From a virus, in the IMG/VR virus record IMGVR_UViG_3300047497_000279, positions 1 through 23,747 of that record: a DNA stretch of 23,747 bases; one strand, 5' to 3'. This document shows, one piece after another, positions 8,124 to 13,804 of the stretch. The position numbers and the translations under genes were made by a program. Position 1 is the stretch's first letter. The number at the start of each line of letters is the position of its first letter. A model generated the notes under the pieces. It was not told the DNA's origin and made no database searches. It saw only the letters and a program-made list of their open reading frames with translations.

Positions 8124-8288
8124 ATGAACGGTGCGTTGGTGGTGGTGCGGCCGTTCGGGCGGTACAAAATCGGCGATCTCATTACCGAAACCGGCCCGAT
8201 GCGGGAGGTTTTGCTGGGTGAGCATGCGCGCAGCGTTGTGCAGACGCATCTTCCGGCACAGCCGGCACCGCATCCGCAGGAGGGTTGA
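8124..8288 (+). CDS. Small conserved phage protein
   Basis: A 54-aa protein starting at ATG 8124, with GGGAG at 8112-8116 seven nt upstream. It contains VVVRPFGRYKIGDLITE and then REVLLGEHARSVVQT. The pattern of a beta strand, a 'F.....GD.I' turn and a short helix ending with a basic patch recurs in small proteins found just before the sheath gene in many myovirus-type prophages. The function is unknown. Its stop lies inside the strong AGGAGGG ribosome site of the sheath gene, two nt before the sheath ATG, so the two are tightly linked. Confidence 0.62.
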   Translation: MNGALVVVRPFGRYKIGDLITETGPMREVLLGEHARSVVQTHLPAQPAPHPQEG

Positions 8289-8290
8289 GC

Positions 8291-9856
8291 ATGACGATCT
8301 ATCAGCAAGGCAGCATCAATACTGCCGGCCTGGTGGTACCCGATCTCTATGTGCAGATCGTGGCGCCACAAAACCTGGTGCTGAACGGCGTGCCGACCAA
8401 TGTGGTGGGCGTGGTCGGCACGGCGAGCTGGGGGCCGGTGAACCAGCCGGTGGTGGCCGGCTCCATGGCCGATTACGCGGCGGCCTTTGGGCCGGTGATG
8501 ATGCGCAAATACGACATGGGCACGCAGGTTGCCACCGCTGTGCAGCAGGGTGCGAGCGGATTCCGCTGCGTGCGCGTGACGGACGGGACGGACACCGCCG
8601 CGAGTTATGCGATCGGGTTCGCGAGCGGGAGTTATGCCGCGCTGCTGACGGCGCGCTATACCGGCTCACTCGGCAACAGCATCAGGGTGACGCTAAGCGG
8701 CGGATCGCAGGCGGGCACGTGGAAGCTGACCTTGGCCATGCCGGGCGGGTTGCCCGAGGTGTTCGACAATCTCGCGGCGTCCGGCACTGCGACGTTCTGG
8801 CAGGTGCTGGTGAGCGCGGTGAATAATGGCACAGGACCGTTGCGGGGGAATTCGCAGCTGGTGGTAGCGACGCCCGGCTCGGCCGGGACGACAGCGCCCG
8901 CGGCGATCGCGAGCCAGCCCTTGCTGGGTGGCACAGACGGGCCCGCCGGGGTGACCGCGGTGACACTGGTAGGGCAGGACACTGTGCCGCGCCAGGGCAT
9001 GTATGCGCTGCGCGGACAGGGCTGCAGCATCGGCGTGCTCGCGGATAGCGACGATCCGACGCAATGGGTGACACAGGCGGGATTTGGCGCGTCGGAAGGC
9101 GTGTACATGATCCTGACCGGGCCGGCCGGTGACACCATTACCGATGCCGTGAGTGTGAAGCTCGGGGCGGGATTGGATTCGCCATCAGCGAAACTGATGT
9201 TCGGCGATTGGGTGTATTGGTCGGATCAGACCAACGGTGTGACACGCATTGTCTCGCCGCAGGGCTTCGTGGCTGGACGGCTGGGGAATTTGTCGCCCGA
9301 GCAATCGAGCCTGAACAAGCCGCTCTATAGCGTGATCGGCACCCAGCGCTCCGGCTTGCCGGGCAGCGGCCAGGTTGCGACCTATAGCGAGACGGAGTTG
9401 CAGACGCTGTTCCAGGCGGGCATCGACGTAATCGCCAACCCGCAACCGGGAGGCGCTTACTGGGGGGTTCGATGCGGCCATAATACGTCGAGCAACCAGG
9501 CGGTGAACGGCGACAATTACAGCCGGATGACGAATTTCATTGCCGCCACGCTGGCTGCGGGGATGGGGCCCTTCGTTGGCCAAGTGATCAACGGCCAGCT
9601 GTTCCAGCAAATTCGCGCAACGCAACTGAGTTTCCTGCAGGCGCTGCTGAGCCAGGGAGTACTGGGGCTGAACGGCACCGGGCAATTGCCATTTTCGGTG
9701 ATCTGCGACAGCAGCAACAATCCGCCCAGCCGCACCAGCCTCGGCTACGTGCAGAGCGATGCGCAGGTGCAGTATCAGGGCATCAACGAGAAATTCATCG
9801 TCAACGTGGAAGGCGGCCAGACGGTCGTTGTGCAGCAGCAGATTTTGCCGAGCTGA
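8291..9856 (+). CDS. Contractile tail sheath protein
   Basis: The 521-aa protein forms the contracting outer sheath. The N-terminus has the sheath signature: PDLYVQIVAPQNLVLNGVP followed by VGVVGTASWGPVNQPVV and the DYAAAFGP helix. The centre holds GVYMILTGPAGDTITDAVSVK and GDWVYWSDQ. The C-terminal region QVQYQGINEKFIVNVEGGQT is the strand that joins neighbouring sheath subunits. Length is typical for the family. AGGAGGG at 8278-8284 lies 6 nt before ATG 8291, which is preferred to TTG 8285. The next gene is the tube, as in P2-like and Mu-like tails. Presence of a sheath makes this a myovirus rather than a siphovirus or gene transfer agent. Confidence 0.93.
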   Translation: MTIYQQGSINTAGLVVPDLYVQIVAPQNLVLNGVPTNVVGVVGTASWGPVNQPVVAGSMADYAAAFGPVMMRKYDMGTQVATAVQQGASGFRCVRVTDGTDTAASYAIGFASGSYAALLTARYTGSLGNSIRVTLSGGSQAGTWKLTLAMPGGLPEVFDNLAASGTATFWQVLVSAVNNGTGPLRGNSQLVVATPGSAGTTAPAAIASQPLLGGTDGPAGVTAVTLVGQDTVPRQGMYALRGQGCSIGVLADSDDPTQWVTQAGFGASEGVYMILTGPAGDTITDAVSVKLGAGLDSPSAKLMFGDWVYWSDQTNGVTRIVSPQGFVAGRLGNLSPEQSSLNKPLYSVIGTQRSGLPGSGQVATYSETELQTLFQAGIDVIANPQPGGAYWGVRCGHNTSSNQAVNGDNYSRMTNFIAATLAAGMGPFVGQVINGQLFQQIRATQLSFLQALLSQGVLGLNGTGQLPFSVICDSSNNPPSRTSLGYVQSDAQVQYQGINEKFIVNVEGGQTVVVQQQILPS

Positions 9857-9909: not shown

Positions 9910-10338
9910 ATGCCGATCAATTCGTTTTCGATAGGGCGCGATTGCCAGCTCGTGGTCATGGGACCGCAAGGGCGGGTGGATCTGACCTACGTGACCGGCT
10001 TCGATAGCCGGCAGGTGACGCAATCCGTGCGGCTCGATCGGCTGGATGGGGTGCCGATGGGCGCGGAATTGCCGAAGGGGTGGGAAGGCAGTTTCGAGGT
10101 GGAGCGCGGCACCAGCGCGGTGGATGATTTCATGTCCACAGCAGAGCAGGCGTTCTTCACGCAGGGGTATCTGCCGGCCGGAACGCTGTATCAGTATGTT
10201 CAGGAAGTGGATGGCTCTACCTCGACTTATCAATATTCGGGGGTGGTGTTCAAGCTGGCCAATGCTGGAACGTGGCGCGGCGACGCGAGCGTGAAGCAGA
10301 AGCTGGAATTTTTCGCGACGCAACGGCAGCGCATCTGA
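9910..10338 (+). CDS. Tail tube protein
   Basis: A 142-aa beta-rich protein directly after the sheath. It begins MPINSFSIGRDCQLVVMGPQGRV, continues with LTYVTGFDSRQVTQ and has an inner repeat of strand-turn-strand units (GWEGSFEVERGTSAVD, YQYSGVVFKLANAGTWRG) typical of the hexameric inner tube under the sheath. The order sheath-tube matches P2 FI/FII and Mu L/M. GGGGAA (9895-9900) lies 9 nt before ATG 9910. The stop codon overlaps the next gene's ATG by one base (TGATG). The 53 bp before this gene have no features I can support. Confidence 0.88.
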   Translation: MPINSFSIGRDCQLVVMGPQGRVDLTYVTGFDSRQVTQSVRLDRLDGVPMGAELPKGWEGSFEVERGTSAVDDFMSTAEQAFFTQGYLPAGTLYQYVQEVDGSTSTYQYSGVVFKLANAGTWRGDASVKQKLEFFATQRQRI

Positions 10339-10682
10339 TGCAAACGCCTTCGGAACGGGTGATGGCCGCGGCCGCGCGCGACATCGCAGCGACCGACGCG
10401 GCGGGGCGGGTGCTGACGATCAGACGGCCGGATGCACTGGACCGGTTGCGGCTGTTTAAGGCGCTGGGCGCCTCGCTGTCGTTGAACACGCCGTATCTGG
10501 GCATGGCGCTGCTGGCATTCTCGGTGACGGCGATCGATGGCGTGCCGGTGCCGCCGCCGGTGACGGAGGATCAATTGGAGTCGCTGGTGCAGCGGCTTGG
10601 CGATGACGGTATCGCGGCGGCGGCGGATGCGCTGGAGGCGGCGGATGCCGCGGAGCCTGGCGGCGCCGACCCGGGAAACTGA
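10338..10682 (+). CDS. Tail assembly chaperone, short (G-like) product
   Basis: This 114-aa protein lies between tube and tape measure. There lambda has G and P2 has E, helpers that bind the tape measure during tail assembly. It has PDALDRLRLFKALGASLSLNTPYLGMALLAFSVTAIDG, a conserved-looking core seen in such chaperones, then TEDQLESLVQRLGDDG and an Ala/Glu-rich end. The reading frame ends with GGADPGN and UGA. Immediately before the stop is the slippery sequence described separately; a minority of ribosomes should shift -1 there and make the longer fusion. ATG 10338 overlaps the tube gene stop. Confidence 0.86.
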   Translation: MQTPSERVMAAAARDIAATDAAGRVLTIRRPDALDRLRLFKALGASLSLNTPYLGMALLAFSVTAIDGVPVPPPVTEDQLESLVQRLGDDGIAAAADALEAADAAEPGGADPGN

Positions 10683-10849
10683 GCCGGCACCCCGATCTGG
10701 TAGAATGTTTGTACCTGATCCGGAACGGGGTGCCGTTCGACGTCGCTTTTGCTTTGCCCGCGCCGGACAGGCTCGCCTGGGTGGTGGCGCTCGGTGAACT
10801 GGACGGACACGCATTCGACTGGGCGGCGATGGCGTGGGCCGATGCGTGA
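10338..10849 (+). CDS. Tail assembly chaperone, frameshift fusion (GT-like) product
   Basis: A -1 shift at 10673-10679 joins the 114-aa short product to 56 more residues read in the overlapping frame from CTG 10679 to TGA 10847-10849, giving 170 aa. The extension reads LSRHPDLVECLYLIRNGVPF, then DVAFALPAPDRLAWVVALGE and LDGHAFDWAAMAWADA. It has a typical T-domain style of hydrophobic clusters with few rare residues, and no start codon of its own is needed. It ends exactly on the tape-measure ATG (TGA/ATG overlap at 10849). In lambda the T part binds tail tube protein while G binds the tape measure; the same division is inferred here. The product is predicted from frame analysis, not observed. 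Confidence 0.83.
10673..10735 (+). promoter_or_regulatory. Programmed -1 ribosomal frameshift signal
   Basis: The heptamer GGGAAAC (10673-10679) is in the canonical X XXY YYZ phase: zero-frame codons are GGA AAC, re-pairing as GGG AAA after the slip. The zero-frame UGA follows at once (10680-10682). A stem then starts after 5 nt: CGGCACCCCG (10685-10694) pairs perfectly with CGGGGTGCCG (10726-10735) across a 31-nt loop. Heptamer, spacer and stem are all in textbook positions, as in lambda G/GT (which uses GGGAAAG). Confidence 0.9.
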
Positions 10850-11961
10850 TGTCGCAAAATGCACCGGCCTGGGCCGGGCTTGACGGGAGCGGTGCCATGG
10901 CGAACGCGGCTTCACGAGGTGAGGCGCTCGTGAAGCGGCTGGCGGTGGCCCAGGGTGTAGCGGCGGCACGGCGGGCGGCCGCTCTTGCCGCTGCCGGCCT
11001 GGTGGCATCGAGGATCGATGTGGGGCGGCTGGACGCGGCGGCCACGCGGGCGGCCCGCGCGGTATCCGGCCGGCGCCCAGGTGCCGTCGCTGCCCAGGGC
11101 GTGATCGTGCCGGCCGACGGCGTTAGCGCGAATGCGGTGGCGGGAGGTGTGCGAGCCGATGCGGGCGGGCGCCTGTCGGCGGCCGCCGAAAGTGCGCCGA
11201 TGACGGCGCGGGCGGGCGTCGTCACCTCAGCAGCAACGGGAAAGGCGCCGCAGCAGGGTCGGCCTGCGGGTGCTGCCGGGCCATCGCGGCTGATCGTGAC
11301 CATGATGGACGGGACCCATGCGACGAACGCCGATAGGCGCCCGCCCGTGACGCCGGGCGGCTCGCCGCGCGCCGCAGGTGCCTCGGCTGGCGCGGGCTTG
11401 GCGATGCGTGGCGCGGCCGCTGGCCTGCGAGCGGCCACGGGCGTCGCCGGTGGCCGCATCGGCGCCGCATCATCGGCGAGACAAGCCGAGGGCGCGCAGG
11501 GCGAGCGGGCGTTGGCATCCGTGGTGGCGACCGTGACGCGGCAGTCGGGGCGAGGCACGCCGGACATGACGGCTGGTGCCTCGGCGGCGCCCGCTCCGGG
11601 GCGGGCGGGGCTGCCGGCCAGTCCGCAGATAGGGATGGCGCGGCGCGGCGCAGGCGGATCCACTGCACTCGTCCCGCGTACGGCAATGGCGACAAAGGAT
11701 GAGACGGGCCCGGAGCACAGCGCCGTTGCCGCTTTGGGGGGCGGCGCGACAGATCAAACGCCGGCGGGCGGCCGGGATGAGACAGCGCCGCAGGGCGGCA
11801 GCGCCAGCCCGGTGGGGGGCGACGTGTATTTGGATGGCGCCCTGATGGGGAGATGGCTCGCACGCACCCTGGCGGACCAGGCGGGACGGCCGGCCAGTGG
11901 CGGCACCGGCTTCGACCCGCTTCGGGGGGTGTTTCCGACCGGCGCCATGATCGGGGGCTGA
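10849..11961 (+). CDS. Tape measure protein, unusually short, putative
   Basis: The 370-aa protein occupies the tape-measure position between the chaperone and the baseplate genes. It is strongly biased to Ala, Gly, Arg and Thr. The first 75 residues look helical (EALVKRLAVAQGVAAARRAA and following), the middle is low complexity and probably disordered, and the last about 45 are the only conserved-looking part: GDVYLDGALMGRWLARTLAD, then TGFDPLRG. I see no membrane helices, lysozyme domain or long coiled coil, which typical tape measures have. If it does set tail length at about 1.5 angstrom per residue, the tail would be about 55 nm. ATG 10849 overlaps the fusion stop; GTG 10834 is a less likely start. 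A different function cannot be excluded. Confidence 0.6.
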   Translation: MSQNAPAWAGLDGSGAMANAASRGEALVKRLAVAQGVAAARRAAALAAAGLVASRIDVGRLDAAATRAARAVSGRRPGAVAAQGVIVPADGVSANAVAGGVRADAGGRLSAAAESAPMTARAGVVTSAATGKAPQQGRPAGAAGPSRLIVTMMDGTHATNADRRPPVTPGGSPRAAGASAGAGLAMRGAAAGLRAATGVAGGRIGAASSARQAEGAQGERALASVVATVTRQSGRGTPDMTAGASAAPAPGRAGLPASPQIGMARRGAGGSTALVPRTAMATKDETGPEHSAVAALGGGATDQTPAGGRDETAPQGGSASPVGGDVYLDGALMGRWLARTLADQAGRPASGGTGFDPLRGVFPTGAMIGG

Positions 11962-12643: not shown

Positions 12644-12816
12644 TGCAAACGCTAACGGTTTGCGGCGGCACACTGTTCGATATCGCTTGCCGGTATTTGG
12701 GTGATGCGTCGCAATGGGACAGCATCGCGTCGCTGAACGGCATCGACGATCCATGGTTGAGCGGGCTGGTGACGCTCGTGATCCCAGATACGGGGGCGAG
12801 CATTGCCGGACAGTGA
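12643..12816 (+). CDS. LysM-like tail protein (gpX-like)
   Basis: A 57-aa protein that is easy to miss because of its size. It is almost entirely one LysM-like module: TLTVCGGTLFDIACRYLGDA, SQWDSIASLNGIDDP, then LVTLVIP. This matches the tail protein X pattern (GDTL.DIA..YLG....W..I..LN.i..P....G..L.IP). In P2 and relatives gpX binds the hub and connects it to the sheath or tube ends rather than to peptidoglycan. The ATG overlaps the previous stop (TGATG), and the next gene starts within its last codons. The order gpU-like, X, D matches P2-group tails. Confidence 0.85.
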   Translation: MQTLTVCGGTLFDIACRYLGDASQWDSIASLNGIDDPWLSGLVTLVIPDTGASIAGQ

Positions 12817-13804
12817 CGCGCGGCAGCCTTTGCCGGTGGTGCTGGTCAATGGCCAGACGGCGGCCGGCATCATGGCGGTGGATATCGAGGCGGACAGCTT
12901 TCTTTCCGCCGACCGGTTCAGTGTTCGGGCGGCCTTGTCGGCCGCGAGTGCCGCGTTCTGGTCCGCGGTGCCATTGCTGGTGGAGATCCAGCTCGCTGTG
13001 GACGGGGTGCAGGCGAGCCTGATCACGGGCAATGCCGATCGCGTGTCGATCGACCCGATCCGTGGCGAGGTGCGGGCGAGCGGACGGGATTTTACATCCC
13101 TGTTCGTCGGCGCGCAGATCGACGAAAGCTTCGAGAACCAGACATCAAGCCAGGTGGTGACCGCGCTCGCCGCGCGGCAGGGGCTGAGTGCGGCGGTGAC
13201 GCCGACGCAGACGCTGGTCGGACGGTATTACCAGAATGGCCGCACCCGGACGGCGATGACGCAGCATGCGCGGGCGACGACGCAGTGGGATCTGATCTGC
13301 TGGCTGGCACAGCTGGAAAATTACGATGTCTGGGTGAGCGGGCAGACGTTGTATTTTCAGCCCGCAGGGCAGAACGCGGGCGGCGTGGCAATTTCGCCGG
13401 CTTCCTGCATGAGCCTGCGGATGGATCACGCGCTGGATATCGCCGCAGGGGTGACGGCCGTGGTGCGGAGTTGGGATTGCGTGTCGCAAACCGCGATCGT
13501 GCAGACCGCGTCGAATGGTGGCGGGAGTCCGGCACGGACGGTCATCAGGCCGAATTTGTCGTCCGGTGAGGCGCAAAGTCTGGCCTCGCGCATCGTGTCG
13601 CAGATTTCCAGCCACGAACGGGTGTTGACGATCGAGATGCCGGGCGATGTGACGACTGCACCGCGGATGAACCTGGCGCTGGCTGGCAGCTTCACGGACT
13701 TCGATGGCACCTACGGTATTTGCGCCGTCGAGCGGCATCTGTCGGTCGGGCGGGGTTTCGTGCAGACCGTGCAAGCAAGGAGCCTGCCGTGGACAGCTTC
13801 CTGA
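12803..13804 (+). CDS. Baseplate hub / gpD-like late control protein
   Basis: This 333-aa protein is the gp27/gpD-like hub that holds the spike. N-terminal strands (PVVLVNGQTAAGIMAVDIEA) lead to the barrel region with VRASGRDFTSLFVGAQIDES, a typical D-protein phrase (GRD.T..L). Then come SSQVVTALAARQGLSAAVTP, WDLICWLAQLENYDVWVSGQ and a C-terminal strand block ending in FVQTVQARSLPW. The alternation of two similar barrels is seen in P2 gpD. It is read from TTG 12803, inside the end of the LysM-like gene, with a G-rich ribosome site just upstream; a GTG at 12836 is possible. It overlaps the spike gene by 16 nt. Confidence 0.82.
   Translation: MPDSDARQPLPVVLVNGQTAAGIMAVDIEADSFLSADRFSVRAALSAASAAFWSAVPLLVEIQLAVDGVQASLITGNADRVSIDPIRGEVRASGRDFTSLFVGAQIDESFENQTSSQVVTALAARQGLSAAVTPTQTLVGRYYQNGRTRTAMTQHARATTQWDLICWLAQLENYDVWVSGQTLYFQPAGQNAGGVAISPASCMSLRMDHALDIAAGVTAVVRSWDCVSQTAIVQTASNGGGSPARTVIRPNLSSGEAQSLASRIVSQISSHERVLTIEMPGDVTTAPRMNLALAGSFTDFDGTYGICAVERHLSVGRGFVQTVQARSLPWTAS

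Follow-up and report, generated by a model that had tools for sequence, protein, structure and literature searches.

Tail gene region and elements of the cassette

The window, by which we mean the whole 23,747-nt stretch of viral DNA analysed here (IMG/VR record IMGVR_UViG_3300047497_000279), contains a tail gene region whose features are listed in Table 1. A probable chaperone gene is located between the tube and tape measure genes, the sheath being recognized by its phrog_23 match, the tube by its position, and the tape measure by a shared motif together with its counterpart in the cultured Komagataeibacter phage phiKX1. The TGA of the tail tube gene overlaps the zero-frame ATG at 10338.

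Table 1. Features of the tail chaperone locus in window coordinates.
Feature	Position	Strand	Basis or remark
Tail sheath gene	8285..9856	+	phrog_23 tail sheath, E 1.9e-50; contractile tail context
Probable tail tube gene	9910..10338	+	Position after the sheath; phrog_12993 (function not assigned), E 1.6e-41
Zero-frame ORF, probable tail assembly chaperone, gpG/gpE-like	ATG 10338 to UGA 10680-10682	+	114 aa; phrog_20383, AlphaFold model, 2ob9
Slippery heptamer G_GGA_AAC	10673..10679	+	GGGAAAC or AAAAAAN in 128/131 distinct homologous loci (set includes the best 80 of 468 viral relatives)
Zero-frame stop UGA adjoining the heptamer	10680..10682	+	Read in the sequence; abutting in 85/128 loci
Putative stimulatory stem, 5' arm CGGCACCCCG	10685..10694	+	Synonymous-codon shuffles, z -3.3; pair counts
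Putative stimulatory stem, 3' arm CGGGGTGCCG	10726..10735	+	Inside the NGVP codons; near-fixed Gly/Val codons in the clade
-1 frame extension, gpT/E'-like domain	10679..10849	+	56 aa plus stop; model pLDDT 92; third-position substitutions
Probable short tape measure protein	10849..11961	+	370 aa; position; C-terminal motif common with ORFs of relatives

The first-pass annotation, made from the letters of the window, had described a complete -1 frameshift cassette in this gene, and each of its elements could be located. The heptamer GGGAAAC is in exact X_XXY_YYZ phase and adjoins the zero-frame stop, the zero frame reading CCG GGA AAC UGA across it. The 5-nt spacer UGAGC separates the heptamer from a stem whose arms, CGGCACCCCG and CGGGGTGCCG, form a perfect 10-bp complement around a 31-nt loop, and the -1 frame stays open for 56 codons (10679-10846) before the stop at 10847-10849. 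The 56 residues of the extension, LSRHPDLVECLYLIRNGVPFDVAFALPAPDRLAWVVALGELDGHAFDWAAMAWADA, would bring the fusion to 170 aa, with LGDDGIAAAADALEAADAAEPGGADPGNLSR as the predicted peptide across the junction. The annotation had also placed the end of the extension at the tape-measure ATG. This holds in the window, where the -1 frame stop shares bases with the ATG of the next ORF at 10849 (TGATG overlap); however, the direct overlap is not general, because phiKX1 and several relatives carry a further ORF of 120-170 aa between extension and tape measure (phrog_26, tail completion/neck, in phiKX1). The tape measure itself is named by position and shared end motifs, the 370-aa ORF having no family match. 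Related ORFs at the same place (about 295 to 470 aa) share the C-terminal motif GDVYLDGxxxGRW...RP.xGxTGFDPR, and some have an N-terminal motif in common with a phiKX1 protein (742 aa) whose match is to the tape measure family phrog_28. Alanine and glycine together make up 42% of the probable tape measure protein of the window.

In the window genes, in-phase X_XXY_YYZ heptamers (Y = A/T) number 7 in all 6842 codons, and GGGAAAC at 10673-10679 is the only one that abuts a stop. A perfect 10-bp stem beginning 4-9 nt downstream is found at 0.3% of window positions. Jointly, chance would give about 6e-5 such arrangements in about 21 genes, with the open -1 frame and the conservation not counted in; the arrangement of the cassette is far beyond chance. 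In addition, the RNA from 10680 to 10745 folds at -32 kcal/mol (z -4.0), none of 200 dinucleotide shuffles being as good, and this fold lengthens the helix beyond the perfect 10 bp. A second in-phase heptamer of the window, GGGTTTC at 13753-13759, lies 42 nt upstream of the stop of the gene at 12803-13804.

The zero-frame protein matches phrog_20383 (function not assigned; E 4.8e-24), as do all 39 representatives, and single family members give weak matches to the tail assembly chaperone families phrog_508 and phrog_344. Pfam and NCBIfam yielded no credible match for it, the Pfam scan no lambda-family match, and annotated phage genomes no direct match. The top PDB fold match of its AlphaFold model (pLDDT 91) is the HK97 tail assembly chaperone 2ob9, at a level reachable by unrelated folds (E 0.15, TM about 0.5, Z 5.3, 96 residues), and BFVD matches include Mu FS-gp41 and several tail assembly chaperones. 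These moderate scores become more persuasive because of the gene order. For the extension, the model shows a compact, helical domain. The extension matched nothing in Pfam or PHROG, the fold search returned no significant named match, and among annotated phage genomes relevant matches were confined to phiKX1 and phiKX2. The analysis thus brings out a conserved 56-residue domain that Pfam and PHROG scans miss.

Conservation of the heptamer, the -1 frame and the stem

Homologous loci were collected with protein queries only, none of which contained the heptamer. The zero-frame protein gave 22 viral loci, the extension profile 468 viral relatives of which the best 80 were taken, and the extension consensus 61 loci in bacterial genomes, mostly Acetobacteraceae and Rhodospirillales assemblies. 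Pooling left 131 distinct loci, and in this set, with its best 80 of 468, a canonical slippery heptamer is present in 128. Its distance to the downstream NGVPFDVAF motif is exactly 51 nt in 127 of the 128 and 102 nt in one, L136, where a 17-codon insertion separates the heptamer from the conserved extension. An indel error would also give a frame change between two ORFs, and the gene might accordingly have been split by a disabling mutation or a sequencing error, with the cassette incidental; but 131 distinct loci, drawn from many assemblies, show the identical frame change at this position. The homologues refute such a split, which we regard as practically inconceivable.

The heptamers of the 128 loci are AAAAAAC (58), GGGAAAC (48), AAAAAAG (12), AAAAAAA (9) and AAAAAAT (1). 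In a protein tree from which the junction residues were left out, the site changed between GGGAAAC and AAAAAAN at least 14 times, slippery throughout. The AAAAAA runs of many relatives would suit slippage of the RNA polymerase on a homopolymer in place of ribosomal slippage. However, the homopolymers of GGGAAAC do not exceed three, and the runs of the relatives are of six or seven A, whereas transcriptional slippage is associated with A stretches of more than 7 (PMC3711429). The strict X_XXY_YYZ phase and the downstream stem are, moreover, ribosomal signals, and slippage during transcription appears extremely improbable. In the branch outside the HPDL-type group described below (L023-L161), the base 5' of the heptamer is T in 55/57 sequences, giving TAAAAAAN.

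Three distinct loci lack a canonical heptamer. L094, like L159 (both Candidatus Glomeribacter), reads AAAGAAG UAG, L155 reads GGGGGAA UAG, and L157 has no heptamer. These four relatives are possibly decayed prophages or users of another recoding signal.

Compared with relatives, substitutions in the extension fall mostly on the third positions of -1 frame codons (e.g. 3/0/12 and 13/9/26), and the extension is therefore translated in that frame. It might be so as a gene of its own, if ribosomes reinitiated at the UGA or beyond it (e.g. on an overlapping CUG) or at an internal GTG. The CUGA overlap is indeed found in many clade members, the GTG of NGVP is common in the clade, and the phiKX1 record divides the cassette between the hypothetical proteins BCZ76063 and BCZ76064. 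Nevertheless, no start codon near the beginning of the extension, or at any fixed position, is conserved among the homologues: the first extension codon varies (CTG, CTC, CTT, CTA, GTA, ATA, CGC), and 26/50 other-branch sequences have GTT or GTC in place of the NGVP GTG. In addition, the peptide conservation extends upstream of any possible start, and the 128 slippery heptamers would have no explanation under reinitiation. Two separate genes are thus highly unlikely. The phiKX1 cassette itself reads AAAAAAC UGA GC and then has the same stem, GGCACCCCG/CGGGGTGCC.

The clade of the window, an HPDL-type group of 64-65 sequences, keeps the stem. Between columns +8 to +15 and +47 to +54, pairing is seen in 97-100% of its sequences, and neighbouring registers pair much less. 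When synonymous codons were shuffled with the protein held constant, the mean z of 64 clade sequences was -3.4, close to the value of the window (Table 1). Codon choice in the 3' arm is nearly fixed, the Gly codon being GGG in 62/64 clade members (27% elsewhere in these genes) and the Val codon GTG in 64/64 (50% elsewhere). Stem pairs covary across the family: in a set of 82 sequences, 85.5% of cells are paired, as against 38-48% in slid registers, with changes on both sides in 33 cells; the number of stem pairs with a change on both sides is three, no excess over shuffles. A U-A pair replaces C-G in L153. Outside the clade, pairing in the same register with compensatory changes is seen in, for example, L023, L052 and L061, and the helix may be a different one, as in L023 (GACGCCG/CGGCGTC) and L052. 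Together, the sequences indicate that the RNA structure of the stem is under constraint in the clade of the window. As for other stimulators, Shine-Dalgarno-like sequences upstream were not enriched over synonymous shuffles (window z +1.2), an Rfam search for the element returned no family, and no structure beyond +62 was found in the stem-less branch (mean z about -1 at most). The first-pass annotation had proposed a -1 shift to a 170-aa extended chaperone, to be checked by conservation of heptamer and stem among homologues; these agree with it, the heptamer being kept in 128/131 extension-bearing loci and the stem across the clade.

Position of the zero-frame stop codon

The first zero-frame stop follows the heptamer at 0 nt in 85 of the 128 loci, at 3 nt in 27 and at 18 nt in 16. 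It may be UGA, UAG or UAA, and its placement has changed at least 11 times on the protein tree. The PRFect study puts the mean distance between slippery site and zero-frame stop at 26 nt in its training phages and at 36 nt in the phages of Xu et al. (PMC10885494), so that the 0-nt distance is at the short end; on a stop abutting a bacterial -1 heptamer, the literature search yielded general statements only. The abutting stop is common, but it is not required in the clade of the window, because 14 sequences there have both heptamer and stem although their first stop comes 18 nt on, and their stems are as strong (mean z -3.7).

The variation among branches raises an addition to ribosomal frameshifting, namely that the abutting stop is a functional stimulator able to replace the stem. 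One branch combines A_AAA_AAN and UAG with no constrained stem, related lineages have a stem and a moved stop, and the clade of the window has both elements. Slow termination, with UGA or UAG in the A site, might give the P- and E-site tRNAs time to slip. Outside the clade, 29/31 abutting-stop loci are without a constrained stem and 21/26 later-stop loci have one (Fisher p 7e-9, uncorrected for relatedness). Meanwhile, the rare codons CTA, GTA and ATA, to which the abutting stop outside the clade can be traced, account for 31/52 Leu/Val/Ile first extension codons, compared with 4-9% elsewhere. However, the tree offers only 1 to 5 phylogenetically independent contrasts, and the pattern of stops and stems could therefore reflect shared ancestry. 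Stem and abutting stop also coexist in the clade of the window, where the 14 sequences mentioned above do without the latter, and a nearby stop could be favoured just to fix the end of the short form. The association of an abutting UAG with the lack of a stem in one branch thus hints, without proving it, that the two stimulators can take each other's place. We consider it unlikely on balance that the stop adds to the signal in this way, and quite unlikely that throughout the phrog_20383 family a heptamer-abutting stop itself stimulates the shift and can stand in for the stem. If it did, the ratio of the tail chaperones would depend on release factor speed.

Proposed mechanism and known frameshift systems

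As far as sequence can tell, the locus has the signs of -1 frameshifting: a heptamer in phase, a downstream stem at suitable spacing, and conservation of both the signal and the -1 frame. We conclude that it is very probably a programmed ribosomal frameshift cassette making two tail assembly chaperones from one gene. The heptamer, the stem, their conservation, the moderate HK97 fold match and the order sheath, tube, chaperone and tape measure assign it to the lambda G/GT type (P2 E/E'). Under this mechanism, most ribosomes would read CCG GGA AAC UGA and terminate, releasing the 114-aa gpG/gpE-like protein. A minority would be held up at the heptamer by the stem-loop 5 nt downstream, and the tRNAs on GGA AAC would slip back one base and re-pair to GGG AAA. 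These ribosomes would pass the UGA out of frame and continue for 56 more residues, to a gpGT/E+E'-like protein of 170 aa. If the roles resemble those in lambda, the short form would cover the tape measure protein, and tail tube subunits would be recruited by the extension. Both the slippage itself and the role of each product are what we infer from these features. In E. coli, G_GGA_AAC does not rank as the strongest class of heptamer. Its AAC codon in the A site has precedent, since haloarchaeal viruses are reported to use G_GGA_AAC and A_AAA_AAC as frameshift sites in tail genes (PMC5009743). In an HK97-like bacterial cluster, frameshifting of the tail chaperone was measured at 6-7% (PMC3711429).

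The frameshift trick is already well known in phages; what is new here is the unannotated family and its unusually compact and conserved signal. The analysis offers a likely function for phrog_20383. In addition, the heptamer swaps, the varied stop placement and the presence or absence of a stem, all at a constant 51 nt, provide a ready comparative set on what bacterial frameshift signals need.

Among known systems, P2 has the gene order sheath, tube, chaperone, extension and tape measure, and the order in the window is alike. The P2 heptamer is a T-run and Mu uses a -2 shift, both unlike the window heptamer. Mu FS-gp41 is among the fold matches of the zero-frame model, but the protein families of P2 E/E+E' and Mu gp41/FS-gp41 differ from that of the window. 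HK97 2ob9 is the best PDB match of the predicted fold, but with 12% identity over the structural alignment. In lambda G/GT the heptamer is of the GGGAAA class, as in the window cassette, and the zero frame continues beyond the slip site, where the window cassette has a stop. The window cassette also differs from lambda in lying in a contractile-tail operon, in a heptamer that ends in C and in a strong stem 5 nt downstream. The two are alike in their position between the major tail protein and tape measure genes, in the -1 direction, and in an abundant short and a rare long product (PMC5009743, citing Xu et al. 2004). In lambda and many other phages, -1 slippage produces a minor chaperone whose extension brings subunits of the tail tube to a tape measure coated with chaperone (PMC5009743). 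Finally, some bacterial dnaX genes have a zero-frame stop directly 3' of the shift site (PMC5009743), which is like the stop placement in the window, although the gene is unrelated.
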